Part shown: positions 37,896-41,985 of the stretch, in pieces | Layout of the letters: each line of letters opens with the position of its first letter | Numbering within the stretch: position 1 is the first letter of the stretch | Assembly: GCA_913774845.1 (NCBI GenBank) | Contig: CAJYJO010000049.1 | Coordinates: 1-48,153 of the forward strand | Direction of reading: 5' to 3' | From: an uncultured Microbacterium sp. | Lineage (GTDB): Bacteria > Actinomycetota > Actinomycetes > Actinomycetales > Microbacteriaceae | DNA: 48,153 bases | Translations under genes and position numbers: made by a program | The notes under the pieces: generated by a model | What the model was told of the DNA's origin: nothing | What the model saw: the letters and a program-made list of their open reading frames with translations, nothing else | Databases searched by the model: none

Positions 37896-38978
37896 ATGAC
37901 TTCCCTCCCCGCCGGCCTCGAGCTGCGCCCCCTGCACGTCCCCGCCCACATCGACGACCCGGACGCCGCGGACTTCCGCGAGATGGTCCGCCTGCGAAAC
38001 CTGGTCTATGCCGAGATCTCCGGCCACGACGACTCCTCCATGCCCGCCGACGAAGTCCTTCCGCTCTACCGACCGCGACCCGAGATGACGCGATTCGCGT
38101 GGATCGCCGTGTTCCACGGCGAGGTCGTCGGCCGGGTAGGTGTGGATTTCCCCGCAGAAGAGGGCGCCCGGACCGGGTTCTGGCTCGTCGAACTCCGCCG
38201 CTCCGTGTGGGGCCAGGGCATCGGTCGAGCGGCCTTCGCCCTGATCGAAAGCGTCGCCCGGGAACACGGTCGAACCGTCCTCCAGTCGTGGGCGGAGCAC
38301 CCCGCGGCGGACGGACCGCGCCTCGACGCACCGACGGGATTCGGATCGATCCCCCGGGACCACGCGGCGCGCTTCCTCCTGGCATCCGGGTGCTCGCTCG
38401 AACAGATCGTGCGCGTGAGCGCGCTCGATCTCGCCGGGGCGCGACCCCGCGTCCGGGAACTCCTCGCGGAGGCCGAACGGGCAGCCACGGGCTATCGGAT
38501 CGTCCAGTGGACGCTGCCCACCCCCGACGAGTTCGTCGACGCCTTCGCGTGGATGAAGTCCCGCATGGTGACCGACGCCCCGTCGGCGGACCTCGAGTAC
38601 GACGAGGAGGTGTGGGATGTCGCCCGCGTGCGACGCTACGAAGCCGGCTACCTCGACGCCGGCCGGCACATGCTCGTCACCGCGGCGCAGCACGTCGACA
38701 CCGGTGAGCTCGCGGCCTTCAACGAGCTGGTCATCGGCAAGGACCGCACCGCGGCGACCAGTCAGGAGGACACCCTCGTCGTCGCGGCCCACCGCGGCCA
38801 CCGCCTCGGGATGCTCGTCAAGTGCGCGGGACTGCTCGCCTGGAGCGACATCGCGCCGGCGTCGCCGCGTGTGCTGACCTATAACGCCGAGGAGAACCGC
38901 CCCATGCTCTCCATCAACGAGGCGATCGGCTTCGCGCCGATCTCGTACGAAGGGGTCTGGAAGAAGGTGCTGGCCTGA
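37896..38978 (+). CDS. GNAT family N-acetyltransferase, probably two GNAT-like halves
   Basis: A 360-aa protein. The N-terminal half has a GNAT core, FAWIAVFHGEVVGRVGVDFP and ELRRSVWGQGIGRAAFALIE, with the acetyl-CoA loop QGIGRA. The C-terminal half repeats the logic: GELAAFNELVIGK, then VVAAHRGHRLGMLVKCAGLL. Such tandem GNATs act on small molecules or proteins; the substrate is unknown. The ATG follows a weak GAAAG. A 17-bp hairpin just after its stop closes the gene. Confidence 0.85.
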   Translation: MTSLPAGLELRPLHVPAHIDDPDAADFREMVRLRNLVYAEISGHDDSSMPADEVLPLYRPRPEMTRFAWIAVFHGEVVGRVGVDFPAEEGARTGFWLVELRRSVWGQGIGRAAFALIESVAREHGRTVLQSWAEHPAADGPRLDAPTGFGSIPRDHAARFLLASGCSLEQIVRVSALDLAGARPRVRELLAEAERAATGYRIVQWTLPTPDEFVDAFAWMKSRMVTDAPSADLEYDEEVWDVARVRRYEAGYLDAGRHMLVTAAQHVDTGELAAFNELVIGKDRTAATSQEDTLVVAAHRGHRLGMLVKCAGLLAWSDIAPASPRVLTYNAEENRPMLSINEAIGFAPISYEGVWKKVLA

Positions 38979-38980
38979 CG

Positions 38981-39024
38981 GCCCGCGCCGTCCTCGGTCG
39001 TCAGAGGCCGAGGACGGCGCGGGC
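38981..39024. terminator. 17-bp hairpin spanning the GNAT-WXG100 convergence
   Basis: GCCCGCGCCGTCCTCGG (38981-38997) pairs perfectly with its complement at 39008-39024; the loop is 10 nt. The right arm is inside the last eight codons of the WXG100 gene. It can terminate both converging transcripts. Confidence 0.82.
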
Positions 39025-39291
39025 TCCGTCGATGTCGGCGCGCTCGAGGTCGGCGGCGTAGGTCGCCAGGCGCTGGCCCGTGATCTTCAGGATCGCGGCC
39101 TTCTCCCGCATGCGGGCGTCGACCTGAGCGTGTTGCGAGGTGAAGGCACTCTGCGCGTCTCCGGCCCAGCGCCCGCGCAGATCGGACGAGGCGGCGGCCA
39201 GCGAGTCCACGTCTGCGCTGAGCGCCTCGGCCGCGCGCGTCAGAGTCTGCGCCGTCGCCGTGATCGCGGCGGTGTCTGCCGTGAGATTCAT
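39001..39291 (-). CDS. WXG100-type type VII secretion substrate
   Basis: A 96-aa all-helical protein with the WXG turn as Trp42-Ala-Gly44 in SDLRGRWAGDAQSAFTSQ, between two amphipathic helices. This is the ESAT-6/CFP-10 (PF06013) layout and length. GGAG precedes the ATG. I do not see the canonical YxxxD/E export signal after the second helix. It is last in a five-gene minus-strand operon. Confidence 0.85.
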   Translation of the reverse strand: MNLTADTAAITATAQTLTRAAEALSADVDSLAAASSDLRGRWAGDAQSAFTSQHAQVDARMREKAAILKITGQRLATYAADLERADIDGARAVLGL

Positions 39292-39301
39292 GACGTCTCC
39301 T

Positions 39302-39706
39302 TCACGACCAGGGTTCTCCCGTACGCGGATACCCCTGGTCCGCGTCGCGGCGCATGCTCACCGCGATGTCGGATTCCGGGCCGAACAGCTCGGCTCCGCG
39401 GTCGGCGAGTCGAGCCATCGCCGCGTGCTGCGCGTCGGCGATGGTCTGCAGGGTGAGGACACCGAGGGCGTCCAGCGCGAGGTTCTGCGCCGCCGGGCCG
39501 AAGGTCACGGCCCGGAGACGTCCTCCCACACCCGCCTCCACGACCACCTCTCCGCGTGGGCTCCGCGCTTCTGCGGTGATCGCGTCGACGTCGTCGGCCA
39601 GGGCGTTCGCGCGTCGCTTGTTGTCGTGCGCCTTCGCGCGGATCTCGGACAGTTGACGCCGGGCGTCTTCGAAGCCGGCATCCATGCCAGCGAAGGGATC
39701 GGTCAT
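39302..39706 (-). CDS. YbaB/EbfC-like DNA-binding-fold protein of the T7SS-type cluster
   Basis: A 134-aa protein. An N-terminal helix (DARRQLSEIRAKAHDNKRRA) is followed by the beta-hairpin SPRGEVVVEAGVGGRLRAVT and a final helix, the YbaB/EbfC fold. In actinobacteria such proteins often lie beside ESX substrate genes (EspL-like), as here, rather than beside recR. It is 13 nt from the lipoprotein gene and 10 nt from the WXG100 gene. Confidence 0.78.
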   Translation of the reverse strand: MTDPFAGMDAGFEDARRQLSEIRAKAHDNKRRANALADDVDAITAEARSPRGEVVVEAGVGGRLRAVTFGPAAQNLALDALGVLTLQTIADAQHAAMARLADRGAELFGPESDIAVSMRRDADQGYPRTGEPWS

Positions 39707-39719
39707 CTCGGCTCTCGTC

Positions 39720-40271
39720 TCAGCTGGTGGAGGTCACGTCGGAGGGGACGACGGGCACGTCGCCGGGCCACTCACCCAGACGTTCGCGCGCGGACGAGCC
39801 GTCGCGGACGCTGATCGCGGCGACGCTGAAGCCGTTCGAGCTCGGCACCGGTTCGCGGGGCTCGAGCCAGCCCGCGTCGGCGGCGGCGACCGCAGCGTCG
39901 AAATCGCTTCCGGCGCCGGCTGTCACGCTGACGGAGATCTGCGCGTTGGGCATGTAGCCCTCGCGCACCGACCACGCCGACTCCGTGAGGAAGGTGATCA
40001 GAGCGGGGCCGTCCATGATCCGGTATCCCGGTGCGACGGTCACGGCGATGTCATAGCCGGTGTTGCCCTTGACGTTGGGCGCTCCACCTCCGGAGACGTC
40101 GACGGACAGCCCGGGGATCTCGGACACCGCGGCCTGCATCTCGGTGAGGGTCTGTCCGCCCGAGGGGGCGTCGTGCGGGATGTCGTCGCGCCGGGCCTGG
40201 GCGCACCCGGCGACGGAGGCGATTCCGCCGATCACGACCGCCGCAGCGATCCATCGTTCAAGACGGGCCAT
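39720..40271 (-). CDS. Hypothetical lipoprotein in the T7SS-type cluster
   Basis: A 183-aa protein. Residues 1-23 are a lipoprotein signal, WIAAAVVIGGIASVAGC (lipobox VAGC). The mature part has two similar alpha-beta stretches (TLTEMQAAVSEIPGLSVDV and DGPALITFLTESAW). Function is unknown; being surface-anchored beside a possible effector gene, an immunity or chaperone role is possible but unproven. It overlaps the 438-aa gene by 14 nt. Confidence 0.78.
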   Translation of the reverse strand: MARLERWIAAAVVIGGIASVAGCAQARRDDIPHDAPSGGQTLTEMQAAVSEIPGLSVDVSGGGAPNVKGNTGYDIAVTVAPGYRIMDGPALITFLTESAWSVREGYMPNAQISVSVTAGAGSDFDAAVAAADAGWLEPREPVPSSNGFSVAAISVRDGSSARERLGEWPGDVPVVPSDVTSTS

Positions 40272-41574
40272 AGTTCATCATGTCCTCGAGTCGGTACTGC
40301 ATGTCGGCCCAGATGCTCACATCGGAGATGCCGGCGTAGGCGCCGTTGGTGTTGCCGCCGAAGCCGAGCCCGTCGAGAATCGTCTCGTCGTAGGCCCCGG
40401 TGACCTCGAACACGGCGCGTCCGTCGACGTTGCGCAGGCGGAAAGCGACCTCTCCCGGATACTCCGGGTGCCCCTCCTGCGCCGCGATGACGAAACCGTC
40501 GTCGGTGATCTGCTGCACCTGGATGTCGCCCGCCGTCACGCCCGGGATACCCAGGCCGAACAGCGACGTGCGGATCGTCTGCCCCTCGCCGGTCAGCTGC
40601 ATGTAGAGCTGACCGTTGTCGCCGACGCGAGAGGGGAGGAACACGTGACCGAACTGCTCCCGCAGCATCTGATTCAGCTGCTCGGTCGTCATGTCCGTGG
40701 TGCCCAGGTCGTACTCGTGCTGATACCCCAGCGGATAGTCCTGGCGGAAGCGCTGATCGGAGCCGGGATAGGGCACCGGTCCGGGGTTGTAGGTGTCGCC
40801 GAGAGAGCCGTCACCGGGAACCAGACCGGGAAGGCCGCCCAGCCCCGGGATGCTCCCCGGCGGGAACCGCTCGAGGAGACGCCCGAGGAGATTCTCGATG
40901 TCCTGATGGAACGGGACGATCGCGCGGTACAGGTCGGTGACGAGTCGGACCATTTCGCGCAGGGCCTGAAGGACCCGGTCGATGTTGTCGATCACGTCGT
41001 CGATGACGGAGGCGCAGTTGTCGGCGAAATCGCTGATGGCCTGAGCCTTCTCGTCGATCTCCCACGGCCAACTGCCGAACAGCACATCGCCGATCACGCC
41101 GGCCGCCGAAGACAGCAGCTCGAATCCGCTGCAGACGAGCGAGCGCATGATCTCGACCGCGCGCACGCACAGCTGCAGGACCTGGCTGACCACCTTGGCC
41201 CAGTCGGCGACCGAATGGGTGCCCGCCGCGAGAACCGTCAGCGAGCCCTCGACGACCGTGGCGGTGATTCCCTGAATGTGCCCCTGGATCTGGTTGAGTG
41301 CGTCGGTGTACGACTCCGACACCCTCTGCATGTCCCCGGAGTACACCTCCCACGTGTGCGACGCGTGGTAGAGGCCGGCGGGGTCACCGGTGACGCGTTC
41401 CAACAGCTCCTCGAGGGGCTGCACGAACCGCGCGATGCTGGAGGCGAATCCTCCGAGCCCGCTGCCGCAGCCGTCACCGCCCGCTCCGCCGACGGGGAGG
41501 GAGTTCTGCCAGTCACCCGCGGCGAGCCGCGCCGCCGCGGCATCCGCCTCGGGAAGGACGGCGGTCGCTGTCAT
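40258..41574 (-). CDS. 438-aa putative type VII-secreted protein with unclassified C-terminal domain
   Basis: There is no signal peptide. Residues about 45-235 are helical and resemble the N-terminal module of WXG/PPE-like actinobacterial T7 effectors (HTWEVYSGDMQRVSESYTDA). Residues 237-275 are a Pro/Gly linker (PGSIPGLGGLPGLVPGDG). Residues about 276-438 are a separate alpha-beta domain with GYQHEYDLGTTDMTTEQLNQ, VAFRLRNVDGRAVFEVTGAY and the end SIWADMQYRLEDMMNYG, which I cannot assign. This is a typical effector layout, but toxicity is not shown. It overlaps the preceding stop by one base (TGATG). Confidence 0.78.
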   Translation of the reverse strand: MTATAVLPEADAAAARLAAGDWQNSLPVGGAGGDGCGSGLGGFASSIARFVQPLEELLERVTGDPAGLYHASHTWEVYSGDMQRVSESYTDALNQIQGHIQGITATVVEGSLTVLAAGTHSVADWAKVVSQVLQLCVRAVEIMRSLVCSGFELLSSAAGVIGDVLFGSWPWEIDEKAQAISDFADNCASVIDDVIDNIDRVLQALREMVRLVTDLYRAIVPFHQDIENLLGRLLERFPPGSIPGLGGLPGLVPGDGSLGDTYNPGPVPYPGSDQRFRQDYPLGYQHEYDLGTTDMTTEQLNQMLREQFGHVFLPSRVGDNGQLYMQLTGEGQTIRTSLFGLGIPGVTAGDIQVQQITDDGFVIAAQEGHPEYPGEVAFRLRNVDGRAVFEVTGAYDETILDGLGFGGNTNGAYAGISDVSIWADMQYRLEDMMNYGPS

Positions 41575-41882
41575 CAGAGGTCGCCTCCGCGGCGCACGAA
41601 GTCGGCTTCGGCCTCGTCATCGACTCGCTGGAAGCCGGCGAGGGCGGTCTGCACGCCCTCGGCCGATCGCTCCGCGCGCGCACCGACGAACGACGACGCC
41701 CCCTCGAACAGGGACCCGAGGGCGTTGAATCCGGGCGGGATGAAGGCCGCGATCGGGCCGAAGGCCATTCCGGGGACGGCCGAACCGAGCACACCCCCCG
41801 CCGCGTTCAACGACGTCGCCGACTGCAGCAGCGTCTGGCGTACCCGATCGTAGGCGTCGCCGTCGACGTCGATTCGACCCAT
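41574..41882 (-). CDS. EspC/WXG100-like small protein, first gene of the T7SS-type operon
   Basis: A 102-aa helical protein (MGRIDVDGDAYDRVRQTLLQ, then a hydrophobic Ala/Gly/Phe segment AAFIPPGFNALGSLFEG). Length and layout fit the EspC-like T7SS target family. The ATG at 41882 is preceded by GGGGGAG with 6-nt spacing; a longer start upstream is less likely. It is 103 nt from the mutM stop, where a promoter for the operon is expected but none is convincing. Confidence 0.72.
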   Translation of the reverse strand: MGRIDVDGDAYDRVRQTLLQSATSLNAAGGVLGSAVPGMAFGPIAAFIPPGFNALGSLFEGASSFVGARAERSAEGVQTALAGFQRVDDEAEADFVRRGGDL

Positions 41883-41985
41883 GAGAAGCTCCCCCGCACT
41901 CCGGACGCGGTGGCTTCCCCGCGGCCAGCGGAGAGCGTAACACGCCATCTCGGACCAGCCCAGAACAGGCGTATGGCCGGATGCG

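Follow-up and report, generated by a model that had tools for sequence, protein, structure and literature searches.

A cassette of five minus-strand genes was analyzed on contig CAJYJO010000049.1 of an uncultured Microbacterium sp., within a stretch of 48,153 nt (the whole stretch is called the window). It encodes, in order of transcription, a 102-amino-acid (aa) small protein, a 438-aa effector, a 183-aa lipoprotein, a 134-aa YbaB/EbfC-family protein and a 96-aa WXG100 protein. Comparison with related loci makes it likely that this is a polymorphic effector-immunity cassette of the T7SSa (ESX) type of type VII secretion system (T7SS), serving a machine encoded on another contig, C33, of the same genome. 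The operon itself, the swapping of domains behind a common N-domain, the co-occurrence with EccC, the matching of lipoprotein to C-terminal domain, a tandem lipoprotein array and the accessory site are all visible in the sequences. In what follows, L-numbers denote loci fetched for comparison, G-numbers genomes (G000 being the source genome) and C-numbers contigs of the source genome.

The open reading frames (ORFs) are tightly packed: the 438-aa ORF overlaps the 102-aa ORF by one base, the 183-aa ORF overlaps the 438-aa ORF by 14, and gaps of 13 and 10 nt separate the 183-aa from the 134-aa gene and the 134-aa from the 96-aa gene, respectively. An independent codon-usage gene caller selected the identical five ORFs, and their order and similar lengths are kept in seven other Microbacterium genomes (L014, which is M. 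testaceum StLB037, and L055–L060; the EspC-like and lipoprotein ORFs of StLB037 were missed by the gene caller and taken from the ORF list), so that they are regarded as genes and not chance ORFs. An earlier note on this DNA, made from the letters alone, had drawn the same five genes with the same spacing, which ORF reading and the independent caller bear out. It had also read them as a type VII substrate-like operon with a possible toxin-immunity or chaperone arrangement, and comparison supports both guesses.

The N-terminal ∼240 residues of the effector were predicted to be helical (secondary structure from a poor AlphaFold model), and W75 is invariant across 16 diverse N-domain homologues. 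The 438-aa protein itself matched no Pfam family over cut-off, WXG100_2 included; homologues matched PF25547 WXG100_2 (cut-off 27) with 38.6 (L080), 33 (L168) and 28.1 bits (L166), and on the strength of these homologues the N-domain is classed as WXG100_2-like. Of the former label "WXG/PPE-like", the PPE half was rejected as a family assignment, as PF00823 was unmatched by the 438-aa protein and the short homologue L080 scored 24.1 bits, under the cut-off of 26. Pfam scans of the window effector and of the other cassette effectors scanned reported no LXG domain. A profile search found six N-domain copies in the source genome, the window's included, and their C-termini differ: L047 and L048 have a GFSQGG motif, which we take to be a nucleophile elbow and from which the name "hydrolase-like" derives; L165 has an ADP-ribosyltransferase (PF03496, E 1.1e-6); L050 ends, by eye, inside a nuclease-like stretch; and L054 has a Gly/Ala-rich tail. 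In relatives, the C-termini include Endonuclea_NS_2 (L084, E 1e-19) and an RHS shell (L166). A common trafficking N-domain joined to exchangeable C-terminal domains is the architecture of polymorphic toxins.

Several cassette loci have arrangements of their own. On contig C50 (L165:4949-7061), the order is YbaB, EspC-like protein and the effector with the ADP-ribosyltransferase end. On contig C19 (L050:4172-6201), an effector ending abruptly in a nuclease-like stretch (by eye) lies beside an integrase-core gene (PF00665). At L079, L080 and L086–L088, the effector ends shortly after the N-domain (∼290 aa by the gene caller) and no lipoprotein is present; two YbaB-type genes occur at four of these loci, L086 being the exception.

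The effector C-domain was aligned from 16 sequences, with 18 invariant residues that include H286 and G368-H369-P370. The same domain ends the RHS-type proteins of L068 (PF05593, 60.4 bits) and L164 (PF05593, 22.9 bits, cut-off 22); it also stands at the ends of the L162 and L163 proteins, which are RHS-type by eye and unmatched by Pfam, and ends an L161 protein with a sub-cut-off WXG100 match (17.6 bits). One C-domain on different carriers is again what polymorphic toxins display. The ORF directly after the C-domain, on the same strand, has 3–6 hydrophobic segments at L068, L161, L163 and L164 (simple hydropathy scan), and at L162 the next same-strand ORF encodes a hydrophobic protein, by eye; none of these proteins in the five other carriers had a Pfam match where scanned. 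Similarity to DUF1990 (PF09348, cut-off 23 bits) was weak, appearing in two of nine rows with a best E of 0.0052, the window row being unmatched; L160 scored 16.7 bits, under cut-off, and hhalign of the C-domain against eight DUF1990 sequences aligned 55 columns that surround the GHPE motif, with a probability of 68.6. If it is a toxin, the C-domain is quite possibly an envelope-directed enzyme that uses one or both invariant histidines.

At L162:5710-9092 (G738), an RHS-like end with the C-domain is followed by the small hydrophobic protein and then by another RHS-like end whose C-terminus differs, an arrangement that looks like RHS toxin turnover.

The earlier note had called these genes orphan substrates, a view that finds no support here. 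When an ESX locus was sought elsewhere in the genome, contig C33 was found to encode EccC (TIGR03924/03925), EccD and EccB over their cut-offs together with WXG100 proteins, and a mycosin-like protease at 108.4 bits, under its cut-off of 278.75. The effector was matched in 27 of 198 Microbacterium genomes, the match including the N-domain in 26. EccC (E ≤ 1e-100) was present in all 26 N-domain genomes vs 42 of the 172 others, so within this genus sample the N-domain was found only with EccC; in 49 genomes the best EccC match spans nearly the full length with at least 56% identity, and all 26 are among these 49. The 27th genome, G144, has only an RHS-borne C-domain and no EccC at E ≤ 1e-100.

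Beyond the genus, a profile search found N-domain matches in 8 of 396 phylum genomes, the source genome included; of the other seven, the four strongest places (L166–L169, three genomes) were taken for comparison and the four weakest matches (E 1e-9 to 5e-4) were left out. A C-domain search of the 396 genomes returned only the source genome's own copy, and C-domain relatives were therefore drawn from genus and family searches; the window-type C-domain occurs in 9 of 299 Microbacteriaceae genomes, source included. PADLOC models gave a best E of 0.058 against the cassette, and among viral contigs none of 160 pattern matches encodes a relative.

The three small non-lipoprotein products are probably secretion partners. 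Of 31 distinct EspC-like homologues, 30 have [FYW]xxx[DE] within the C-terminal 32 residues, where shuffling would give 8.5, and the window's 102-aa protein has FQRVD. Lap1 proteins require FxxxD for LXG export (PMC9600955). The 96-aa protein matched PF06013 with 35.9 bits (cut-off 27.3) and TIGR03930 of NCBIfam with 42.8, just below 44.85; in a set of 30 WXG100 proteins encoded close to effectors, of which a few may come from other operons, WxG is present in 27 and an export-type motif in 25. The parts of the bipartite T7SSa signal are present as FQRVD in the 102-aa protein, WAG in the WXG100 protein and the invariant W75 of the effector, the WXG100 protein being without a Y/F motif. The 134-aa protein matched PF02575 with 27.4 bits (cut-off 25.5). 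The source genome yielded five PF02575 loci, every one of them inside an effector cassette, and for this reason an EspL-like role for YbaB fits better than a general nucleoid role; no recR-type YbaB was found at the threshold used, and whether a diverged recR-linked copy escapes the hidden Markov model (HMM) was not examined. In 35 cassettes with a called effector, YbaB accompanies 31, WXG100 28 and the EspC-like protein 31, gene-caller misses counting as absent. Among the identities first proposed, YbaB and WXG100 are confirmed by HMM matches; the EspC family was rejected, since the 102-aa protein has no Pfam family at E ≤ 1 and PF10824 was unmatched.

The 183-aa protein, with a lipobox-like stretch ending at C23 (by eye and regular expression) and no Pfam match over cut-off, is probably the cognate immunity protein of the effector, judging from how its type follows that of the C-domain. 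Pairing was counted in 47 fetched cassettes. With a strict lipobox scan, lipoproteins were seen in 9 of the 11 window-type cassettes and in 12 of the 20 hydrolase-like ones, and a single lipobox-like ORF next to one of two nuclease cassettes; since alignments show lipobox cysteines in most of the strict-scan misses, cassettes were classed by family profile instead. By a profile that includes 8 of its 11 lipoproteins, the window-type lipoprotein stands beside 11/11 effectors with the window C-domain and 0/20 hydrolase-like effectors; by a profile that began with 14 lipoproteins from those 20 cassettes and was then iterated on the set, the hydrolase-type lipoprotein stands beside 20/20 hydrolase-like effectors. 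The window-type lipoprotein of L055 also has a marginal score with the hydrolase-type profile (5e-04). Among the other 16 cassettes (nuclease, other, short), only L065 has a hydrolase-type lipoprotein; because a GFSQGG motif lies nearby, in another frame than, or not joinable to, the called effector ORF, L065 could be a hydrolase-like cassette that is broken or was misassembled.

Lipoprotein genes are also amplified. In another Microbacteriaceae genus (G808, L158:2090-6295), seven tandem intact ORFs, homologous to the window's 183-aa protein, each with a lipobox and 57–86% identical to one another, immediately follow an effector that carries the window's C-domain, and several hydrolase-type copies are present at each of L072 and L081. 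Strings of non-identical immunity genes accompany T7SS toxins, as in the esaG, tsaI and tipC arrays (PMC9484751). In the nuclease cassettes L084 and L085, small proteins follow that lack a signal peptide by eye.

A commoner second cassette type, with a GFSQGG hydrolase-like end and its own lipoprotein family, was observed at L047, L048, L061–L064, L066, L067, L069–L077 and L081–L083, and adjoins a VKOR gene in several genomes (PF07884 in L066). Abhydrolase_2 was detected below its cut-off of 23 in four of seven such effectors scanned (L047, L061, L069 and L070; 14.6–16.3 bits) and was absent from L048, L063 and L075. These cassettes are candidates for a T7SSa lipase toxin with lipoprotein immunity.

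From these comparisons we infer secretion, toxicity, immunity, a site of action and catalysis for the window's cassette. The 102-aa FxxxD protein would bind the helical N-domain of the effector in the cytoplasm, probably with the WXG100 and YbaB proteins, and the bound effector would be brought to the C33-encoded EccC-type machine. Once delivered to neighboring cells, or released, the C-domain would work at the outer face of the cytoplasmic membrane. It would most likely be an enzyme there, using H286 and/or H369, with a lipid or lipid-linked wall precursor as its substrate. The producer would be protected by the 183-aa lipoprotein, which would sit on its membrane and neutralize the domain. 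Action at the outer face with lipoprotein immunity is suggested because the lipoprotein tracks the C-domain, occurs in tandem arrays and is paralleled by multi-pass membrane ORFs after the C-domain elsewhere.

A number of results weigh against this reading. The C-domain is the best conserved part of the cassette, with a mean pairwise identity of 84.9% across eight cassettes (N-domain 75.5, YbaB 63.8, EspC-like 60.5, lipoprotein 57.1 and WXG100 55.3%), and arms-race toxins are often less constrained. The window WXG100 protein has WAG but LERAD for YRQAD, the canonical Y being absent. The EccC co-occurrence gives a Fisher P of 1.9e-14, which overstates independence since the genomes are related, and the single-sequence query overlooks diverged N-domains (three found in the source genome at E ≤ 0.001 vs six by profile). 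Most of the input to the two lipoprotein profiles came from the very loci that were counted. Between the two lipoprotein types, hhalign gave a probability of 85.6, suggesting one fold; they may thus be distantly homologous, in which case they could serve as a general accessory and not as specific immunity proteins. No lipoprotein homologue was found at the loci with an RHS-borne C-domain (L068, L161–L164). A PDB sequence search with the C-domain gave 0 matches, and the AlphaFold model of the effector, from a two-sequence alignment, was unusable as a structure, with a predicted local distance difference test score (pLDDT) of 36.6.

The conservation of the C-domain and the apparent single fold of the lipoproteins would also fit an effector that is a T7SS-secreted enzyme or binding protein of envelope maintenance or the cell surface, complexed with the lipoprotein on the surface of the producing cell, the other three proteins being its secretion partners. 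The hydrolase-like class, which adjoins the VKOR gene and a large rne-looking ORF (by eye) in several genomes, and the DUF1990-like similarity, which is to stand-alone proteins without an assigned role, point the same way. Such a housekeeping function is nevertheless unlikely, given that RHS-type proteins carry the same C-domain in toxin position, and given the nuclease and ADP-ribosyltransferase domains in sister cassettes, the non-identical tandem lipoproteins and the patchy distribution.

An effector directed at a plant or protist host, with the lipoprotein as an unrelated envelope factor, would suit the nearest named relative, M. testaceum StLB037, which is plant-associated. It would also suit the mycobacterial T7SS toxin CpnT, which works in host infection (PMC8092274). 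A host-only effector would, however, not need a lipoprotein whose type tracks the C-domain and is amplified in L158; membrane-protein ORFs, moreover, come after the C-domain elsewhere, and we regard this reading as very improbable. Least probable of all is a WXG100/YbaB operon that serves DNA binding or regulation and takes no part in secretion: in other bacteria, nucleoid association has been described for YbaB-family proteins (PMC9610160), but the presence of EccC in all 26 N-domain genomes, the export-type motifs, and the lipoprotein and multi-domain effector in the operon all speak against it.

Understood as an effector-immunity cassette, the operon follows a known logic, that of T7SS polymorphic toxins, and the suggestion of a wholly undescribed system is not upheld; its own features are the T7SSa setting, the YbaB partner, a C-domain in toxin position to which no activity is assigned, and a lipoprotein as the probable immunity protein. 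The LXG toxin-Lap1/Lap2-immunity cassettes of T7SSb (TelC, TelD) likewise have a common helical N-domain with variable C-termini and two small helical partners, with FxxxD on one (PMC9600955), and an immunity gene in the operon (PMC10730906), as is proposed here. The present cassette differs from them in lying in a T7SSa genome (EccC/EccD/EccB), in its N-domain, WXG100_2-like via homologues, and in its additional YbaB protein. TslA-TilA, the T7SS lipase toxin pair of S. aureus, has the lipoprotein immunity that is proposed here and likewise two helical partners and repeated immunity genes, which in the present cassettes are candidates, but TslA has the reverse domain order (PMC10730906). Unlike TslA, the window C-domain is not a recognizable lipase, although the sister hydrolase-like cassettes may be.

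CpnT has an immunity factor, and EspL contains a YbaB domain. As a T7SSa toxin of M. tuberculosis with a helical N-domain and operonic Esx partners, CpnT/TNT with EsxE-EsxF resembles the window's effector; it differs in its toxin domain, and neither a YbaB protein nor a lipoprotein is mentioned in the available portion of PMC8092274. EspL of ESX-1 is also a YbaB-type protein tied to ESX substrates and a proposed chaperone (PMC6319747), but it sits in the ESX-1 locus and stabilizes EspE/EspF/EspH, whereas here the YbaB genes go with effector cassettes that lie outside the machinery locus. RHS and other polymorphic toxins share the domain logic (PMC3482391), and the same C-domain ends RHS-type proteins; the window effector, unlike RHS toxins, is without RHS repeats. 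The words DUF1990, YbaB and EspC are absent from the available text of that survey (PMC3482391). No literature was found joining YbaB with WXG100 and a toxin, or with type VII secretion in Actinobacteria, in a search that left most subscription journals uncovered and is not proof of novelty; for DUF1990 with toxins nothing related was found, and for type VII with Microbacterium, toxin and immunity only a review.

In the literature consulted (PMC9600955, PMC8092274), T7SS antagonism between bacteria is described for firmicute T7SSb, and T7SSa mainly for mycobacterial host interaction. In a genus outside the mycobacteria, a repertoire of exchangeable effectors, accompanied by candidate immunity genes for lipoproteins or cytosolic proteins and by YbaB, WXG100 and FxxxD partners, would make the role of such ESX systems directly testable, and the cassette offers an unassigned toxin-position domain with two invariant histidines. 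A wider and more tentative proposal is that the C-domain defines a novel toxin class that acts on the envelope, is DUF1990-like in one half and is delivered by both RHS and ESX routes, that environmental ESX systems may be mainly antibacterial, and that dedicated YbaB proteins may be effector chaperones.

Features of the cassette and its boundaries in the window
Feature	Position	Strand	Basis or remark
102-aa small helical-type protein; EspC/PE/Lap1-like by position and motif	41574..41882	-	C-terminal FxxxD (FQRVD) export-type motif
438-aa effector	40258..41574	-	WXG100-like helical N-domain (∼1-240) and C-domain (∼259-438)
C-terminal toxin-position domain of the effector	40261..40803	-	Same domain ends RHS-type proteins; weak DUF1990-like similarity
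183-aa lipoprotein, proposed cognate immunity protein	39720..40271	-	Lipobox VAG-C23 (eye and regular expression)
134-aa YbaB/EbfC-family protein, proposed EspL-like secretion partner	39302..39706	-	PF02575 over cut-off
96-aa WXG100 protein	39001..39291	-	PF06013 over cut-off; WAG motif; LERAD in place of the YRQAD of orthologues
Junction with mutM, upstream insertion boundary	41883..41985		Comparison of mutM loci
Junction with convergent GNAT gene, downstream insertion boundary	38979..39000		Comparison of mutM loci and Pfam

The neighboring genes were identified by Pfam as mutM (PF01149), a GNAT gene (PF00583) and smc (PF02463). The GNAT gene (360 aa, 37896-38978, + strand) and a 95-aa ORF separate smc from the cassette, and the insertion point is therefore mutM/GNAT and not smc; of the site between smc and mutM given in the earlier note, only the mutM side holds. 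The G+C content of the cassette (69.2%) is similar to that of its surroundings (70.4%).

The cassette is accessory at the mutM site, as had been supposed. Cassette genes were beside mutM in none of 22 other Microbacterium genomes searched, and the five genes are not fixed at the site in this comparison of 22 genomes and StLB037. A GNAT homologue lies directly beyond mutM in 12 of the 22 loci and was unmatched in the remaining 10 within the ∼1.5 kb stretch compared. In L095 (G006), mutM and GNAT are ∼95 bp apart and both flanks align to the window, with the cassette absent. The six orthologous cassettes L055–L060 are in different gene neighborhoods. A scan of relatives' contigs matched one locus, that of StLB037, where the cassette is present between mutM and smc, together with a ∼1.1 kb extra stretch next to mutM.

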